Part shown: positions 43,257 through 50,659 of the stretch, piece after piece | How the letters are laid out: each line of letters begins with the position of its first letter | How positions within the stretch are numbered: the first letter of the stretch is position 1 | NCBI GenBank assembly: GCA_027488845.1 | Contig: JAIYBC010000063.1 | Location: forward strand, 1 to 64,000 | Reading direction: 5' to 3' | Source of the DNA: Verrucomicrobiales bacterium | GTDB lineage: Bacteria; Verrucomicrobiota; Verrucomicrobiia; Limisphaerales; UBA9464 | DNA: 64,000 bases | Translations under genes and position numbers: made by a program | Notes under the pieces: model-generated | Databases searched by the model: none | Seen by the model: only the letters and a program-made list of their open reading frames with translations | What the model was told of the DNA's origin: nothing

Positions 43257-43292
43257 GACGACCTCGCCTTGGAAGGCTCCTTGGTCCGGCGG

Positions 43293-43308
43293 GCCGGCAA
43301 CCGCCGGC
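43293..43308. terminator. GC hairpin between converging genes
   Basis: GCCGGC-AACC-GCCGGC forms a six-base-pair stem with a four-base loop, 36 bases past dabA and just beyond the end of the converging epimerase gene. A shared terminator is plausible, though there is no clear T-tract. Confidence 0.4.
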
Positions 43309-43313
43309 TAGGC

Positions 43314-44264
43314 CTAGGCACCGGCGCCGCTGCGGTACCAACCCAACGTCCGCTCCAGGCCTTCCTTCCATCCAACCCGCGGCTCCCAACCGACCGCCGC
43401 ACGCAACGCGGAGACGTCGGCGAGCGAGTGACGGACATCACCGACCCGATCCGGCTCGTGGCGGGGTCGGACCTGGAGGCCGGTGAGGGCATTCAGGTCG
43501 TCCACCAGCCGCAACAGCGTGATGCGTTCACCGCAGGCGACGTTGAAGAAGCGCCCGGCAACCTGTTCCCCGGGCGCAGTTGCGGCGGCGAGGTTCGCGT
43601 CCACGACGTTGGCCACGTAGGTGAAGTCCCGGGACTGCCGGCCGTCGCCGAAGATCACCGGCGTCCCGCCCTCGAGGAACTGCGTGCAGAACTTCGCGAT
43701 GACGCCGGAGTACGGGGAGTTGAACGCCTGGCGGGGACCGAAGACGTTGAAGTAGCGGAGGCTGACGGTCGGCAGCCCGTAGAACCGGTGGAACATCCGG
43801 GCGTAGGTCTCGGCCGCGTACTTCTGGAGCGCATAGGGCGAAAGCGGGTTGGGCGGAAGGCCCTCGTGCTTGGACGGCGCGTCGTTGTCGCCGTAGACCG
43901 AGGACGACGACGCGAAGAGGAACCGCTTCACCCGGGCGGCCTTGGCGGCCTCGAGCAGGTTCAGCGTGGCGGTGAGGTTGTGGGCGTTCGAGGCCAGGGG
44001 TTCGGCCACCGACCGCGGCACGCTGGGCAGGGCCGCCTCGTGGAACACCCAGTCGGTGCCGGGCACCAACCGCGACAGCAGGGCGGGATCCCCGGCGTCG
44101 CCCTCGACCACCTCCAAGGCGTCGCCGGGCCGGACCCAGGCCAGGTTGCCGCGGGAGCCGAGGGAGAAGTTGTCGAGGACGGTGACGGAATGGCCGGCGC
44201 GGACGAGCGCCTCGGCGATGTGGGATCCGATGAATCCGGCACCGCCGGTGACAAGGGCTTTCAT
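43314..44264 (-). CDS. NAD-dependent UDP-sugar 4-epimerase
   Basis: 316 residues of the extended short-chain dehydrogenase family. The N-terminal NAD motif is TGGAGFIGSH (residues 6-15). The active site is the Ser cluster near 119-122 with Tyr144 and Lys148 (SPYALQKYAAE). RYFNVFGPRQ is typical of GalE/WbpP-type epimerases. With the next gene, a UDP-sugar dehydrogenase, it resembles the TviB/TviC or WbpO/WbpP pair that makes UDP-N-acetylgalactosaminuronic acid for surface polysaccharides. The exact substrate is inferred. The 84-base gap to the dehydrogenase suggests one transcript. Confidence 0.87.
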   Translation of the reverse strand: MKALVTGGAGFIGSHIAEALVRAGHSVTVLDNFSLGSRGNLAWVRPGDALEVVEGDAGDPALLSRLVPGTDWVFHEAALPSVPRSVAEPLASNAHNLTATLNLLEAAKAARVKRFLFASSSSVYGDNDAPSKHEGLPPNPLSPYALQKYAAETYARMFHRFYGLPTVSLRYFNVFGPRQAFNSPYSGVIAKFCTQFLEGGTPVIFGDGRQSRDFTYVANVVDANLAAATAPGEQVAGRFFNVACGERITLLRLVDDLNALTGLQVRPRHEPDRVGDVRHSLADVSALRAAVGWEPRVGWKEGLERTLGWYRSGAGA

Positions 44265-44348
44265 GGCAGGAAACGGACCGGGCCGGACCGGCCCCCCAAA
44301 GGGACACCGGATGGCCTGAGGTCCAGTGAAGGGATCGGCAGGCCGGGG

Positions 44349-45674
44349 TCAGGCCTTGACCCAGCGTTCCGGGGGCAGCCCGAAGGCGGCGAAGGCGTTG
44401 CGGGTGTCCACGATCAGCCGCGCCGCCTCGGCGACCGGCTCCAGGTCCATCGCGGCATGGCGGGTGAGCAGCAGCACCGCGTCGAAGCCGGCCACCGTCG
44501 CCGGATCCAGCGCCACGCTGCGGCGGCCGGCGAAGTGCCCGTGCTCACGGCTGGGGCGGATCACCGGGATGTGGGGATCGTGGTACTCCACCGTGGCCCC
44601 GGCCTCCTCCAGCCGTTCCCAGAAGACGTAGCCGGGACTCTCACGGTCGTCGTCGACGTCGGACTTGTACGCGATTCCGAGCAGCAGCAAACGGGCGCCG
44701 GCAAGGGGCCTTCCACGGGCCGCGAGGGCCGCCTCGAGACGGCCGAGCACGTAGGACGGCATGGCGGTGTTGACCTCGCCGGCCAGTTCGATGAAGCGCG
44801 TCTGCTGGCCGTACTGCCGGGCCTTCCAGGTCAGGTAGAACGGGTCGATGGGGATGCAATGGCCGCCGAGGCCGGGCCCCGGGTAGAACGGCATGAAGCC
44901 GAACGGCTTCGTCTTGGCCGCCTCGATCACCGACCACACGTCGATGCCCATCGCGTCGTAGACCACCTTCAGCTCGTTCACCATGGCGATGTTGACCGCG
45001 CGGAAGATGTTCTCGGTGAGCTTCACCGCCTCGGCGACGCGGCAGTCGGCCACCGGGACCAGCCGGCGGACGACGCGGCCGTAGACGTCGAGGGCGCGGT
45101 CGCGGCAGGCGGGGGTGAGGCCGCCGACGACCTTGGGGATCTCGGCGACGCGGCTGGCGGGATTGCCCGGATCCTCGCGTTCCGGGGAGAAGGCGAGATG
45201 GAAGTCGACGCCCGCACGCAGCCCGGAACCGGACTCGAGGACCTCGCGCAGTTCGGTATCCGTGGTGCCGGGATAGGTCGTGGACTCGAGCACGACGAGC
45301 ATGCCGCGGCGCAGGTTCGGGGCGATGGAACGTCCGGTGCCGATGACATACGAGAGGTCCGGCGAACGCCCTTCGCCGAGCGGCGTGGGCACGCAGATGA
45401 GCACCGCCTCGCACTCGGCGACACGGGCGAAGTCCGTGGTGGCCTCGAAGCGTCCGTCGGCACGACGCTCGGCGACGGACGCCGTCGGGATGTGGCCGAT
45501 GTAGCTCTCCCCGGCGTTGAGGCGCGCGACCTTCGCCGGGTCGTTGTCGAATCCGAGCACCGGACCGACCCGGCTGAACAGCAGCGCCAAGGGAAGCCCG
45601 ACATAGCCGAGTCCGACGATCCCAACCTTGCGGCCGGACAGGTCTGCGGAGCGGATGCTGGAGGATTCAGGCAT
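44349..45674 (-). CDS. Nucleotide-sugar 6-dehydrogenase (UDP-GlcNAc/UDP-ManNAc type)
   Basis: 441 residues. The NAD-binding loop is VGIVGLGYVGLPLALLFS (residues 17-34). The catalytic cysteine is Cys273 in PGPGLGGHCIPIDPFYLTWK, and LTENIFRAVNIAMVNELK is the usual dimer helix. Such enzymes oxidise C6 of a UDP-hexosamine to the uronate in two NAD-dependent steps. The neighbouring epimerase favours a TviB/WbpO-like role in capsule or O-antigen precursor synthesis, but no glycosyltransferases are in the window. Confidence 0.9.
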   Translation of the reverse strand: MPESSSIRSADLSGRKVGIVGLGYVGLPLALLFSRVGPVLGFDNDPAKVARLNAGESYIGHIPTASVAERRADGRFEATTDFARVAECEAVLICVPTPLGEGRSPDLSYVIGTGRSIAPNLRRGMLVVLESTTYPGTTDTELREVLESGSGLRAGVDFHLAFSPEREDPGNPASRVAEIPKVVGGLTPACRDRALDVYGRVVRRLVPVADCRVAEAVKLTENIFRAVNIAMVNELKVVYDAMGIDVWSVIEAAKTKPFGFMPFYPGPGLGGHCIPIDPFYLTWKARQYGQQTRFIELAGEVNTAMPSYVLGRLEAALAARGRPLAGARLLLLGIAYKSDVDDDRESPGYVFWERLEEAGATVEYHDPHIPVIRPSREHGHFAGRRSVALDPATVAGFDAVLLLTRHAAMDLEPVAEAARLIVDTRNAFAAFGLPPERWVKA

Positions 45675-45733
45675 GGGAAAAGCGGGGCGGGATTCGGGCG
45701 TCAGGCGTCAGGCGTGGGGTTTCGGGCCCCGGG

Positions 45734-46780
45734 TCACTGGAGTTCCTTGGCGGAGATGCGCCACTGGGTGCCGAACTTCTTCGCCTTGATGTCGCCCGAC
45801 TCGATCGCCTTGTACACATCCAGCTCGGTGATCTTGAGGACCTTGGCCGCCTCGGCCGGTGTGAGCCAGTCGCTCTCGGCGGATTTGGGAGCGGGGGCCG
45901 GCGCCGGAGCGGGAGTCGGCACCACGACGGGAGCCGGCGTGGGCGTGGGCGTGGGCGTGGGCGTGGGAGCCGGAGCCGGAGCCGGGACAGGGGCAGCGGG
46001 AGCGGTCTTCGCCGGGGCCGTGGTCGCGTTGGCGCCGGCGGCTGCATTGAGCGCGTCGGCCGTCTTCTGCAGGTCCGACTTCTCTGTGGCGGCTCCCGGG
46101 TTGGCGCCGGAGTTCGCGGCCTGCGCCGCGGCCCCGATTCCCTTGGCGATCCCGCCGAGGATGGAGTTGAAGGCCGCCGCATTGCGCTCGGCCTTCTCCT
46201 TGGCGGCAGTCACCGCGGCCACCTGGGCGGCGAGATGCTTCTCCTCGCCTTCCAGCGGGAGGTTCTGCTTCTCGCTGCGGAGATAGCCGACCGCCTCCAA
46301 CGACAGCTCCTTGATCGGTCCGAAGGTGCCGTTGGCGCGCTGGTTGAAGGTGTCGCGCACGCTCAGCGTGTCGCCCTTGGCATACCGTGGGTAAAGGAAC
46401 TGTGTGGCCACGCCCGAACCCTGCATCGACTTGAGCAGGTCCGCCGCCACGGGTCGTCCACCCGACTGCAAGGCACGAACCAGGAACCGCGGTTCGTCGC
46501 ATTCCAACTCGAGGGTGAAGTCGATGGACTTCACGCCCTTGGAGGCCCGGATCTTGAGTTCCGGGTCCTTCAACGGCGACAGCCCCTTGGGAGTGCTTTC
46601 CAGGATGTGCTTCTTCGCCCCGGCCAGCAGTTCGGCATCCGCCTCCGCGGGATCCTCCGCCCGCGCCAACAACGCGGCGGTCGCCAACAGCAGCGGCAAC
46701 GAGGCCCGCCGGATCCGTTCGAAACAGCGGTTGGCAGCGGACACGCCGGAGCCTTCGGGAGAGGTGCGGATGGGATTCAT
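45734..46780 (-). CDS. Exported or membrane-anchored protein ending in an excisionase-like HTH
   Basis: 348 residues, one uninterrupted frame. A hydrophobic segment at about residues 27-41 (RRASLPLLLATAALLARAED) looks like a signal peptide. A soluble domain to about 200 is unrecognised. A small-residue helical stretch and a Pro/Thr/Ala linker (about 253-302) follow. The last 46 residues (from 303) read WLTPAEAAKVLKITELDVYK with WRISAKEL at the end, the pattern of a MerR/excisionase-type DNA-binding domain (HTH_17). A DNA-binding fold on an exported chain is contradictory. It could be a membrane-tethered regulator with the HTH on the cytoplasmic side, or the domain may bind something else. The gene follows the polysaccharide-precursor genes' strand but has its own upstream region. 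Confidence 0.75.
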   Translation of the reverse strand: MNPIRTSPEGSGVSAANRCFERIRRASLPLLLATAALLARAEDPAEADAELLAGAKKHILESTPKGLSPLKDPELKIRASKGVKSIDFTLELECDEPRFLVRALQSGGRPVAADLLKSMQGSGVATQFLYPRYAKGDTLSVRDTFNQRANGTFGPIKELSLEAVGYLRSEKQNLPLEGEEKHLAAQVAAVTAAKEKAERNAAAFNSILGGIAKGIGAAAQAANSGANPGAATEKSDLQKTADALNAAAGANATTAPAKTAPAAPVPAPAPAPTPTPTPTPTPAPVVVPTPAPAPAPAPKSAESDWLTPAEAAKVLKITELDVYKAIESGDIKAKKFGTQWRISAKELQ

Positions 46781-47059
46781 GGATGGTTCCGACGCCCGGG
46801 GGAACGTCGGATCCTCAGGATTTACGCCCGCCCCGGCCCCGAGGCCACGGGAAACTTCTCTCCGGCCGGAAGGATTTCAACGTCCCCGGCGGAACGATGG
46901 AGACGGGACCGGCAAGCCGAGCCGCCAAGGCGCCGGGGAGCGGGGTGGAAACCGCCGGTTTCCCGTGGCGGAAACTGGAACCAAACGGCGGTCGCGTCCT
47001 CGCTTCCGAAGCCGGCGTCCCGGCGTGGGACCCGCCTTCGCTTCGATCGGATCGCCGGC

Positions 47060-47989
47060 TCAACGGCCCGGGACGGCGACGGAGTTGGTCGTGAAGCGCA
47101 CCTGCGCGAAGCACTCCGGGATGTGCGAGTCCCAGATCCCGTGCGGGTTCAACGCCCAGCCGCCGGAGTCCTTCGCCGGCGCCGGCTCCTTGGCCGTGTT
47201 GAAGCGCGAGAAGTCCATCCGCCACTCGTCGCCCTCCTTCGCGGGGATCGACCGTCCGCCGGACGGGAACAACCGCCGGATCCCGTCCCAGGGCAACGCC
47301 AGCTCCACGGTCCACCCACGGTCGGTGTCGGTGTCGTCGTTGAGCGTTCCCTCCACGTGCACCGCCGTCCGCAGGCCCGGGAACGCCCAGTCGAAGTGGC
47401 CCAGGCGCCGTCCGCGCGGATGATGCACGAAGCCCACGCCGTTGAAGTCCTTCAGGTTCGTCCGGGCGAACTCGGGGAGACGCGCGAAGCCGGCCTTCTC
47501 GTAGGACGCCTCCCAGATGAAGAAGACCTCGTAGACCGTGTTGCGGGCGTTGATCTCGAACTCGTAGTAGGCGTCGTCGCCGGCGATGAAGAACTCGACG
47601 TCGTTCTCGGTGTAGATGGGGTCGTTGCGCCGCGTCAGCTTCGCCCGCACCCGCGGCTCCTCGATCCGGTACGCCACGTAGAGGTTCACGTCGTCCCAGA
47701 GCAGCTTCACCCGCGTGTCGCGGAAGGTCGGCGTGCCGGCGATGAGGTCGACGAAGCGCGCGGACTCCTCCGCGCCGGACCAGGCCATGTCGTCGAGCCG
47801 TCCGTCGACGACCACCGGACCCGACGCGCGACGGGCGGTCAGCACCCGGGCCGCGCCGGAATCGCACGGGATCTTCGAACGTTCCGCCGCGGTGGGTTCC
47901 GCTCCCCGCACCAGCAGGGAACACAGACCGGCGCCGAGGAGGAGCCGGAGGACGCGGCCGGCGTGGGATCGGAAGGGCGAACGTGCCAT
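47060..47989 (-). CDS. CBM9-like carbohydrate-binding protein, exported
   Basis: 309 residues from the ATG at 47989, preceded by GGGGAGGA and followed by a signal peptide (RVLRLLLGAGLCSLLVRGAE). The whole mature part is a family-9-like binding fold: VVVDGRLDDMAWSGAE, VKLLWDDVNLYVAYRIEEP, NDVEFFIAGDDAYYEFEINA and RGWTVELALPWDGI. Such domains bind sugars or act as stand-alone surface proteins. It is divergent from pair E (120 bases between starts), so the two may share regulation and a substrate. An in-frame ATG at 48049 lies too far upstream of the signal. Confidence 0.87.
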   Translation of the reverse strand: MARSPFRSHAGRVLRLLLGAGLCSLLVRGAEPTAAERSKIPCDSGAARVLTARRASGPVVVDGRLDDMAWSGAEESARFVDLIAGTPTFRDTRVKLLWDDVNLYVAYRIEEPRVRAKLTRRNDPIYTENDVEFFIAGDDAYYEFEINARNTVYEVFFIWEASYEKAGFARLPEFARTNLKDFNGVGFVHHPRGRRLGHFDWAFPGLRTAVHVEGTLNDDTDTDRGWTVELALPWDGIRRLFPSGGRSIPAKEGDEWRMDFSRFNTAKEPAPAKDSGGWALNPHGIWDSHIPECFAQVRFTTNSVAVPGR

Positions 47990-48109
47990 GTGCGTGGGAT
48001 CCTCCCCTGCAACCGGCGCCGCAGGCAAGGAGGCGGGGAGGCGATGCACCGGCTCGCGCGTTGATGAAGAACCGCATCGGTGGTTACGTCACCCCATCCC
48101 GCCGAGCCC

Positions 48110-50659
48110 ATGTCCCGGAATCCCCTCCCCCAGCACCCCGTCGCACCCCGCGCCCGGAACCCGTTCCGCGCGCCGCTCGCGGCGGCCATCTCGCTGGCCC
48201 TCGGCTTCGGCGGCGCGGCGGCGGACGTCTCCCGGGAAGTCCGGTTCTCCCGCGACATCCTCCCGCTGCTCTCCGACCACTGCTTCGCCTGCCACGGCCC
48301 CGACGAGAAGGGCCGCAAGGGCGGCCTGCGCCTGGACACCCGGGAAGGGGCCCTCGGCCGCGGGAAGAGCGGCGAGACGGCCGTGCTGGCCGGCCAGCCG
48401 GAACGGAGCGAATTGGTCCGGCGCATCACCGCCACGGACCCCGACGACCTGATGCCGCCGGCGAAGTCGAACCACCGGCTCACCGCGGACCAGGTCGCGC
48501 TCTTCCGCCGCTGGATCGCGGAGGGCGCGGAATGGGGACGCCACTGGTCCTACGAACCGCCCGTGCGGCCGACGGTGCCGCAGGTCCCGGGCGAGGCCGA
48601 CCTCGGTCCGGTCGACGCCTTCCTCCGGTCACGCCTGCGACGCGAGGGTCTGGAGCCGTCGCCCGAGGCGTCGCGGTCGGATTGGATCCGCCGGGTGACG
48701 CTCGATCTCACGGGCCTGCCGCCGTCGCCCGCCGAGGTGGAGGCCTTCCGGAACGATGCCGCGCCCGGGGCCCACGGACGGGTGGTGGACCGCCTGCTCG
48801 CCTCACCGCGCTACGGGGAACGGATGGCCTGGGACTGGCTCGAGGCCGCCCGCTACGCCGATTCCAACGGCTACCAGGGCGACAGCGAGCGGACCATGTG
48901 GCCGTGGCGGGACTGGGTGGTGGACGCCTTCAACCGCAACCTGCCCTACGACCTGTTCACCGTGTGGCAGCTCGCCGGCGACCGGCTTCCCGCACCCACC
49001 CACGAACAGCGTCTCGCGACCGGTTTCCTGCGGAACCACATGATCAACGGCGAGGGCGGACGCATCGCCGAGGAGAACCGCATCGACTACCTCTTCGACC
49101 AGACGGAGACCGTCGCCACGGTCTGGATGGGGGCCACCTTCAACTGCACCCGTTGCCACGACCACAAGTACGACCCGCACACCCGTCGCGACTACTTCAG
49201 CCTCCTCGCCTTCTTCGACCGCACCGTCGTGGACGGCGGCGGCGGCAACCCGCAGAACCCGCCCAACCTCGCCGTGCCTTCCCCGGAGCAGTCGCGCCGG
49301 GCCGTGGAGACCGAGCGGGCGCTCGACGAGGCGGCGCGCGCGGTGGCGGCGCTGGAGGCGGAACGTTTCCCACGACCCGACGGGAAGCCGGCCTCCGAAT
49401 CCCCCGCCGCCCGGGAGCTTCCCAAGGAACTGCAGGAAACCCTGAAGACCGCGCCGCGCGACCGGGATCCGGGTCGCATCGGGACGCTGGCCGCGCACTG
49501 GAAGTCCTCCGCGCCGTCCTACCACGGGGCACTGGAGGCGCTCCGGGGGGCCCGCGACCGCCGCAACGCCGCCGCCTGGGCGATCCCGTACGTGATGGTG
49601 ATGGACGACGGCGCCCCGGGCCGGGTCACCCGGATGCTCGAACGCGGCAACTACCTCAAGCCCGGCGAGTCCGTGCCCATGGCCCTGCCCGCCGCGGTCG
49701 CCGGGAACCGCGCGGTTTCGCGGACCAACCGGCTCGACCTCGCGGAATGGCTGGTCTCCCGCGACAACCCGCTCACCGCCCGGGTCACGGTGAACCGGTT
49801 CTGGCAGTCCCTCTTCGGCGTCGGCCTGGTGAAGACCTCCGAGGACTTCGGTCTCCAAGGCGAACGGCCCGTCCACCCGGAGCTGCTCGACTGGCTGGCC
49901 GTCGAGTTCATGGAATCGGGTTGGGACGTGAAGCGCCTGGTCCGCCTGATGGCCACCAGCGCCGCGTACCGGCAGTCGTCCCGCGTCACGCCGACGCTGG
50001 CGGAACGGGATCCGGAGAACCGCCTCCTCGCCCGCGGTCCCCGCTTCCGAATGCCTTCCTGGATGATCCGCGACACCGCACTGGCCGCCGCCGGCCTGCT
50101 GTCCGACGCCGTCGGCGGGGCGCCCGTGAAGCCCTACCAGCCGTCGGGCGTCTGGGAGGAGGCGACGTTCGGGACGAAGCGCTACGAACAGGACCACGGC
50201 GAGTCCCTCTACCGTCGCAGCCTCTACGTGTTCTGGCGCCGCATCGTCGGGCCGACCTTCTTCTTCGACACCGCCAGCCGGCAGACCTGCACGGTCCGCA
50301 CCCCGCGCACGAACGTCCCCCTGCACGCGCTCCTCACCCTGAACGACACCGCCTACGTCGAGGCGGCCCGAGCGCTCGCGGCCCGCGTGCTGGCGTCCGC
50401 GCCCGACGACGTCCGCCGCCTGGACGCCCTCGGACTGTCGGTGCTCGGACGCCCGTTCTCGGAGGACGAGCGGACGGTCCTTTCACGCGGACTCGACCGG
50501 CATCGCCGTCGGTTCCTCGCCGAACCATCCGCGGCGGACGCGCTGCTGCACGTGGGCGAGAGCCCGGCGACACCCGGCATCGCGCCGACGGAACACGCCG
50601 CCTGGACGCTCGTGGCGGGCACGGTGCTGAACCTCGACGAGGCCTTGTCCCAGGAATGA
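48110..50659 (+). CDS. DUF1549/DUF1553 protein with N-terminal haem domain (PSCyt1), pair E
   Basis: 849 residues, the shortest of the five. Signal segment APLAAAISLALGFGGAAAD is followed by PSCyt1 with CFACH at residues 58-62. DUF1549 contains LTGLPPSPAEVEAF and CTRCHDHKYDP from residue 346. DUF1553 begins with NPLTARVTVNRFWQSLFGVG. The middle insert present in pairs A-D is missing, and only a short helical segment links the two domains. The start at 48110 is preferred over a GTG ten codons earlier. The DUF1501 partner starts ten bases after the stop. Confidence 0.88.
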   Translation: MSRNPLPQHPVAPRARNPFRAPLAAAISLALGFGGAAADVSREVRFSRDILPLLSDHCFACHGPDEKGRKGGLRLDTREGALGRGKSGETAVLAGQPERSELVRRITATDPDDLMPPAKSNHRLTADQVALFRRWIAEGAEWGRHWSYEPPVRPTVPQVPGEADLGPVDAFLRSRLRREGLEPSPEASRSDWIRRVTLDLTGLPPSPAEVEAFRNDAAPGAHGRVVDRLLASPRYGERMAWDWLEAARYADSNGYQGDSERTMWPWRDWVVDAFNRNLPYDLFTVWQLAGDRLPAPTHEQRLATGFLRNHMINGEGGRIAEENRIDYLFDQTETVATVWMGATFNCTRCHDHKYDPHTRRDYFSLLAFFDRTVVDGGGGNPQNPPNLAVPSPEQSRRAVETERALDEAARAVAALEAERFPRPDGKPASESPAARELPKELQETLKTAPRDRDPGRIGTLAAHWKSSAPSYHGALEALRGARDRRNAAAWAIPYVMVMDDGAPGRVTRMLERGNYLKPGESVPMALPAAVAGNRAVSRTNRLDLAEWLVSRDNPLTARVTVNRFWQSLFGVGLVKTSEDFGLQGERPVHPELLDWLAVEFMESGWDVKRLVRLMATSAAYRQSSRVTPTLAERDPENRLLARGPRFRMPSWMIRDTALAAAGLLSDAVGGAPVKPYQPSGVWEEATFGTKRYEQDHGESLYRRSLYVFWRRIVGPTFFFDTASRQTCTVRTPRTNVPLHALLTLNDTAYVEAARALAARVLASAPDDVRRLDALGLSVLGRPFSEDERTVLSRGLDRHRRRFLAEPSAADALLHVGESPATPGIAPTEHAAWTLVAGTVLNLDEALSQE

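Follow-up and report, generated by a model that had tools for sequence, protein, structure and literature searches.

An HTH_17-type winged helix with replaced DNA-contact residues at the C-terminus of an apparently exported Verrucomicrobiota protein

Regulators of the ToxR/CadC type carry an N-terminal cytosolic winged helix-turn-helix (wHTH) domain, followed by a transmembrane helix. In the protein considered here, which is encoded within a 64,000-nucleotide stretch of Verrucomicrobiota DNA (hereafter the window), the arrangement is the opposite, with the hydrophobic segment at the N-terminus and the wHTH at the C-terminus. Winged helices of the excisionase class include BldC, which assembles head to tail on DNA (PMC5859096), and RdfS, which has the same fold as BldC and oligomerises independently of DNA (PMC11963761). 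The window protein shares the wHTH fold of BldC, RdfS and Xis, and matches the corresponding profiles above their curated cut-offs, but differs from all three in that its winged helix forms the C-terminus of a long, apparently exported protein.

The nearest relatives of this module are found on a second group of proteins, the SPFH/Band_7_1 (PF13421) proteins of the YdjI kind, in which the same module subfamily stands behind a low-complexity linker, as it does in the window protein, although the latter has no SPFH domain. Bacillus subtilis YdjI is needed for bringing PspA to the membrane and carries a zinc finger close to its C-terminal end (PMC8581546). Zinc ribbons, GYF_2 and SHOCT domains are, like the HTH module, short C-terminal modules of Band_7_1 proteins, but they belong to different families; for SHOCT, a test of oligomerisation was negative (PMC3581485).

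Coding frame, distribution and surroundings

Stop-free, full-length homologues with 85-90% identity are present in three members of the same genus (G012, G005 and G013), and stop-free homologues with 42-44% identity in G035 and G031, which represent two further genera of the family; the alignments of these two to the window protein start at residues 28 and 46, and their open frames run further. The gene compared with its three genus relatives gives a dN/dS of 0.17-0.19 (dN 0.057-0.086, dS 0.32-0.48), and the dN of the HTH segment (the C-terminal 45 residues) is 0-0.0096 between genus members. The 348-residue frame is under purifying selection and its joined architecture is real; the homologues and the dN/dS of 0.17-0.19 rule out a chance frame. 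An earlier note on this DNA had described one frame joining an export signal, an uncharacterised domain, a linker and an HTH_17-like domain, and had allowed that the frame might be broken in relatives. It is intact in all five genomes named above, and the frame, domain, linker and HTH_17 module are indeed joined, while the export signal is deduced from a pattern. A profile of the middle domain recovers the gene from 6 of the 50 family genomes searched; among 286 genomes sampled across the class it has hits in two, each of which is a member of the family. The coordinates of all features are collected in Table 1.

Table 1. Features of the window gene and its neighbours, and of the SPFH/Band_7_1 loci used for comparison. 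Window positions refer to the 64,000-nucleotide stretch; the Band_7_1 loci L196-L203 and L205 come from G344, G372, G387, G377, G349, G129, G339 and G359.
Feature	Position	Strand	Basis
Complete coding sequence, 348 aa + stop	45734..46780	(-)	ORF starting ATG; homologues; dN/dS
Residues 1-41, Sec-like signal peptide (putative)	46658..46780	(-)	Basic n-region, core 26-39, ARA|ED; pattern test
Residues 42-166, lineage-specific alpha/beta domain with invariant LECDEPR	46283..46657	(-)	Alignment; weak NTF2-like fold matches
Residues 179-223, predicted long helix, possible coiled coil	46112..46246	(-)	Predicted secondary structure, pLDDT about 41-56
Residues 251-303, Pro/Ala/Thr linker	45872..46030	(-)	Composition; length varies between homologues
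Residues 305-348, HTH_17-fold module with acidic recognition helix and basic wing	45737..45868	(-)	Pfam, TIGR01764, AF2, VIA
UDP-glucose/GDP-mannose dehydrogenase (UGDH), downstream neighbour	44352..45674	(-)	Same gene order in L032/G012
CBM9-like protein with signal-like N-terminus, upstream neighbour	47060..48049	(-)	Domain scan and N-terminal pattern
PSCyt1/PSCyt2/PSD1 (DUF1549/DUF1553) protein, adjoins CBM9-like gene	48080-50659	(+)	Domain scan
Band_7_1 C-termini, GYF_2	L196, L197		
Band_7_1 C-termini, one to several zinc ribbons	L198-L202, L205		
Band_7_1 C-terminus, sub-cut-off SHOCT	L203		
Small protein upstream of SPFH-HTH gene	L168:10389-10991, L169:8089-8757, L170:9359-9958		Loci read at this width

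Four flanking genes were scanned, namely an epimerase, UGDH, the CBM9-like gene and the PSCyt/PSD1 gene. The downstream UGDH and the upstream CBM9-like and PSCyt genes are common to L031-L033; the surroundings of the gene in G035 and G031 yielded none of the three. In three genus-mates that do not have the gene (G007, G016 and G015), the CBM9-like gene is 68-74% identical in its best segment, and no match to UGDH or the epimerase was found within 9-18 kb around it. With flanks that are shared within the genus and not in the other two genera, the neighbourhood is uninformative on function. A plasmid search returned no relative of the window protein, and of 41 stretches of viral contigs that matched the middle-domain pattern none is a relative; as such, an origin in a mobile element is unsupported. 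The plus-strand open frames at 43269-46286 (1005 aa) and 46235-48064 (609 aa), which oppose the named genes, look like GC-rich shadow frames, and these are a trap for any reading of the window by eye.

No Pfam family matched residues 42-166, and a search of this domain against PDB sequences gave no match of note (the best, at E 0.25, being ribosomal S13). Two AlphaFold models built from four-row alignments are of low confidence overall (mean pLDDT 49.9 and 55.5), the second reaching a pLDDT of 74-83 over residues 42-91 with most of the remainder lower. Structural comparison by VIA-align ranks NTF2-like domains high for both of these low-confidence middle-domain models, with 3ub1 aligning over 77 residues in each case at Z 7.1 (rmsd 2.9) and Z 5.8 (rmsd 3.8), values which at no more than 7.1 fall in the range that the program flags as possible chance. 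The NTF2-like envelope domains to which the models align (TcpC-like 3ub1, PBP5 6g0k, DotI 3wz4 and VirB8 4kz1) have no sequence match of note to the window domain, and we regard a possible NTF2-like fold as a lead only. A TonB_N match in the linker is sub-threshold (19.6 bits against a cut-off of 33), and as the protein's three Pfam matches do not include a TonB C-terminal domain, identification as TonB was rejected. The Band_7 domain is absent from the protein in a Pfam scan at E <= 1.

The C-terminal winged helix and its DNA-contact positions

The C-terminus is readily recognised by profile, with Pfam HTH_17 (PF12728) matching residues 305-347 at E 2.5e-9 (37.7 bits against a cut-off of 27) and the TIGR01764 'excise' model at E 8.7e-10 (38.8 bits against 28.8). 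The AF2 model places helices at residues 308-315 and 319-328 and strands at 333-336 and 339-343 (pLDDT 67-79), and by VIA this winged helix superposes on BldC 6ama (Z 7.4, rmsd 1.8, 49 residues aligned) and on Xis 4j2n (Z 7.0, rmsd 1.0, 46 residues), with 8dgl also aligning (Z 6.3, rmsd 4.4, 54 residues). A phmmer search of the PDB with the HTH sequence alone returned nothing at E <= 10, and a profile of the module found Xis 4j2n at E 0.011. A protein of 348 residues is not small, and no integrase was found among the four flanking genes scanned; an excisionase in the sense of a recombination directionality factor was therefore discarded.

The residues of the module were compared with those of other HTH_17 domains from the family. 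A search of 50 family genomes gave 112 matches, of which 90 loci were read; one best domain was kept per locus, as chosen by a mixed profile, and identical domains were merged, which left 37 different sequences of 40 on SPFH proteins and 46 of 47 elsewhere, with the earlier loci L001 and L037 added. The comparison sets are thus five different exported sequences, 37 SPFH C-termini (L104 and L127 being assigned to this set by the module's own motif) and 46 others; the sequences are related, and the residue counts given below are accordingly not counts of independent events.

In BldC, the recognition helix contacts DNA through Lys26, Thr27, Thr29, Arg30, Trp31 and Lys33 (PMC5859096), and not one of these residues is retained across the 42 modules of the exported and SPFH sets. 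The phosphate-contacting Thr27 is replaced by Asp in 42/42, and this position is acidic in 0/46 of the other HTH_17 domains. Position 26 is basic in 0/42 of the subfamily compared with 25/46 of the others, position 33 in 0/42 compared with 12/46, and position 30 in 3/42 compared with 25/46, the three being Lys in three of the five exported modules, with no SPFH module basic there. His46 and Arg47 of BldC are likewise replaced throughout the subfamily, but the loss of these two, and of Thr29 and Trp31, says little because other HTH_17 domains vary at these positions and often lack the same residues. The charge of the recognition helix separates the sets, with means of -2.8 in the exported modules and -3.1 in the SPFH modules against +2.0 in the others, and ranges of -2 to -4 in the subfamily against -1 to +5. 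On the wing, Arg48, which contacts DNA in BldC, is Arg in 42/42 modules, and the wing charge is +4 in all 42 against a mean of 2.8 in 33 others.

A further 26 HTH_17 domains from the phylum, picked by their similarity to the module and thus not a random sample, have Asp at position 27 in none and Glu in one, a basic residue at position 26 in 20/26, and helix charges of -1 to +3. An acidic residue stands at BldC position 25 in 42/42 of the subfamily and in 4/46 of the others, but it was dismissed as a diagnostic because 19 of these 26 domains have Glu there, and we therefore rely upon position 27, position 26 and the helix charge. At the level of residues, the premise of an ordinary excisionase-type HTH fails, the BldC recognition-helix contacts being replaced; the module has probably lost DNA binding, although the retention of wing Arg48 in all 42 speaks against a full loss. 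The contradiction that the earlier note had seen in a DNA-binding domain outside the membrane is correspondingly weaker, although an HTH fold on an apparently exported protein is indeed what the gene encodes.

The oligomer interface of BldC is kept only in part. The position of its Glu16 is acidic in 42/42 modules, and also in 23/43 others, and that of its Gly44 is Gly in 42/42, and also in 29/34 others, with the window module keeping both the acidic residue 16 and Gly44. The Glu16-Arg22 pair of BldC is Glu/Lys in the five exported modules, and the Arg22 partner position is basic in no SPFH module, while two further interface residues are replaced, Ile40 (by Lys throughout the 42) and Trp31.

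SPFH carriers and the origin of the module

In the window's own genome (G000), an SPFH/Band_7_1 protein carries the other copy of the module at its C-terminus (282.6 bits to PF13421 and 31 bits to HTH_17). A search of the order at E <= 1e-8 found 58 matches to the subfamily, in 55 of 146 genomes, two of these matches being exported proteins, from G000 and G035; 40 of the order's loci were read, representing 38 different places, of which 37 encode SPFH proteins and one is truncated by a contig end. A survey of 145 phylum genomes at E <= 1e-6 gave 34 matches in 30 loci. The four strong matches besides the window protein all belong to SPFH proteins; judged by eye, the 26 weaker ones that were read resemble ordinary HTH proteins. 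The usual carrier of the subfamily is the C-terminus of an SPFH scaffold and not a regulator, and among the loci read no further carrier was seen besides the exported protein.

With a profile of the 37 SPFH modules, the five exported modules score 43.5-51.2 bits and the best of the 46 others 17.5. On a profile of the other HTH_17 domains the exported modules score 32-36 bits, and they are for this reason intermediate and less derived than the SPFH modules. A tree of 50 columns, from which domains shorter than 40 aa were left out, groups the exported and SPFH modules at 89/74 and the exported modules alone at 88/77, both values being below the 95/80 mark. An origin of the exported protein by one transfer of the SPFH module is favoured by these comparisons but unproven.

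The position that the module occupies on SPFH proteins is filled by other domains elsewhere in the phylum. Of the 12 Band_7_1 loci found in 79 phylum genomes, two end in HTH_17, two in GYF_2, six in zinc ribbons and one in a sub-cut-off SHOCT, with no module recognised in the last; as the HTH module fills the slot of GYF_2, zinc ribbons and SHOCT-like motifs, this slot takes exchangeable C-terminal modules. By analogy with YdjI, the SPFH carriers are probably cytosolic, and the one SPFH protein that was put through the N-terminal pattern test described below is without a signal pattern.

Some observations on individual SPFH loci may be added. In 3/3 loci of two genera, the gene immediately upstream of the SPFH-HTH gene, on the same strand, encodes a small protein that has low-complexity stretches and an N-terminus resembling a signal, with no Pfam match in the two that were scanned, and SPFH scaffold and exported partner may form an operon. 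In an SPFH protein at G310:C3:77500-80000 (L237) the HTH matches only profile positions 15-43 and is possibly truncated or decaying, and in L104 (G327) and L127 (G005) the module is out of frame with the SPFH part, wholly or to some extent, as a result of either assembly errors or broken genes.

Apparent export and the proposed role of the module

Export was judged by a crude, non-specific pattern. An uncharged core of 14-21 residues followed by small residues at -3/-1 is present in 6/6 homologues, and a basic stretch stands right before the core in 5/6 of these (G035 having a net charge of 0). Of the four segments of the protein, residues 1-41 show the highest dN in two comparisons out of three and rank third in the remaining one, and the N-terminal sequence of the homologues varies freely while the core and the -3/-1 residues persist. 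One of three cytosolic controls passes the test too, UDP-glucose dehydrogenase (hydropathy 1.98 vs 2.07, uncharged run of 18, +2, -3/-1 sites), while the other two are lower in mean hydropathy (SPFH 0.80, epimerase 1.30). Because the dehydrogenase control passes the same pattern, we infer rather than assert that the N-terminus is a signal peptide and the protein exported.

On balance, we would give roughly even credence to the gene product being an exported envelope scaffold or adaptor in which the module is a protein-interaction tether, of whichever kind. The N-terminus would direct the protein through the Sec system, so that the mature N-terminal domain and the helix come to lie in the periplasm or against the inner membrane on its outer side; the Pro-rich linker would keep the C-terminal module at a distance; and the module, an HTH_17/excisionase-derived winged helix with its DNA contacts lost, would act as the tether, having been acquired once from the C-terminal module of the SPFH/Band_7_1 proteins of the same order or sharing a common ancestor with it. 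Among the options raised in the earlier note, the data favour the reuse of the fold as a peptide- or protein-binding module, given that the DNA contacts are replaced and that the same subfamily ends SPFH scaffolds. The note's inverted-topology membrane regulator is unsupported, as a basic-then-hydrophobic N-terminus that precedes the HTH predicts that the C-terminus lies outside.

How such a tether would work is a separate matter. A module that serves in two compartments would most simply bring its own partner by self-association, and one could envisage a head-to-tail arrangement in which the acidic recognition helix of one copy packs against the basic wing of the next in the geometry of the BldC and RdfS filaments. 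We consider head-to-tail self-association unlikely, if worth stating, and an acidic helix and basic wing that pair within one molecule, or an unknown ligand, would also explain the charges. Alternatively, the same envelope tether could employ the module as a monovalent ligand-binding domain with a specific envelope partner, a possibility which takes its share of the credence given to the tether and which by itself we regard as clearly less likely than not. The Band_7_1 slot in which the module sits also holds GYF_2, which binds peptides, as well as zinc ribbons and a SHOCT-like motif; SHOCT was negative for oligomerisation (PMC3581485), and the incomplete retention of the BldC interface points the same way. 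A specific partner, however, would have to exist in both compartments or have changed between them, and the charged positions of the module are nearly invariant in exported and SPFH contexts alike.

If the N-terminus is instead no export signal, the protein would be cytosolic or membrane-bound, with the module inside and either tethering or still regulating. The behaviour of the dehydrogenase control speaks for this, as does the likely cytosolic location of the SPFH carriers by analogy with YdjI (PMC8581546), but the hydrophobic core and small -3/-1 residues have been kept in 6/6 homologues from three genera despite free sequence change, and we hold this alternative to be rather unlikely. Very improbable, in our estimation, is the binding or capture of DNA outside the cytoplasm in a competence-like manner, as the earlier note had also offered. 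Contacts would then be made through the basic wing, whose +4 charge and Arg48 are constant in 42/42, and the HTH_17 and excisionase profile scores are still above their cut-offs; against this, position 27 is Asp throughout, the recognition helix carries a charge of -2 to -4, no competence or integrase gene was found among the four flanking genes scanned, and identical residues are replaced in the SPFH proteins. It is the acidity of the recognition helix in particular that leaves DNA capture poorly supported, basic wing or no.

In the open-licence literature, as covered by titles and the starts of abstracts, we found no description of the present architecture, whether among papers on SPFH with HTH domains, on HTH_17/excisionase domains with a signal peptide, or on winged helices that do not bind DNA. 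The NCBI model TIGR01764 names the C-terminus an excisionase-family DNA-binding protein, a name which here covers a subfamily whose DNA contacts are replaced and whose carriers are membrane scaffolds and an apparently exported protein; some annotated regulators in these genomes may therefore not be regulators. It is conceivable, though we think it doubtful, that across one order an excisionase/BldC-type winged helix has been converted into a portable, DNA-free homotypic polymerisation module, its head-to-tail contacts having formerly served to build filaments on DNA. Such a module would cluster SPFH scaffolds inside the cell and, after a single domain transfer and the gain of an export signal, an unrelated scaffold outside the inner membrane. 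If the module does self-associate, it would show a DNA-filament fold turning into a DNA-free assembly module, for the study of which a protein of about 45 residues would suffice.
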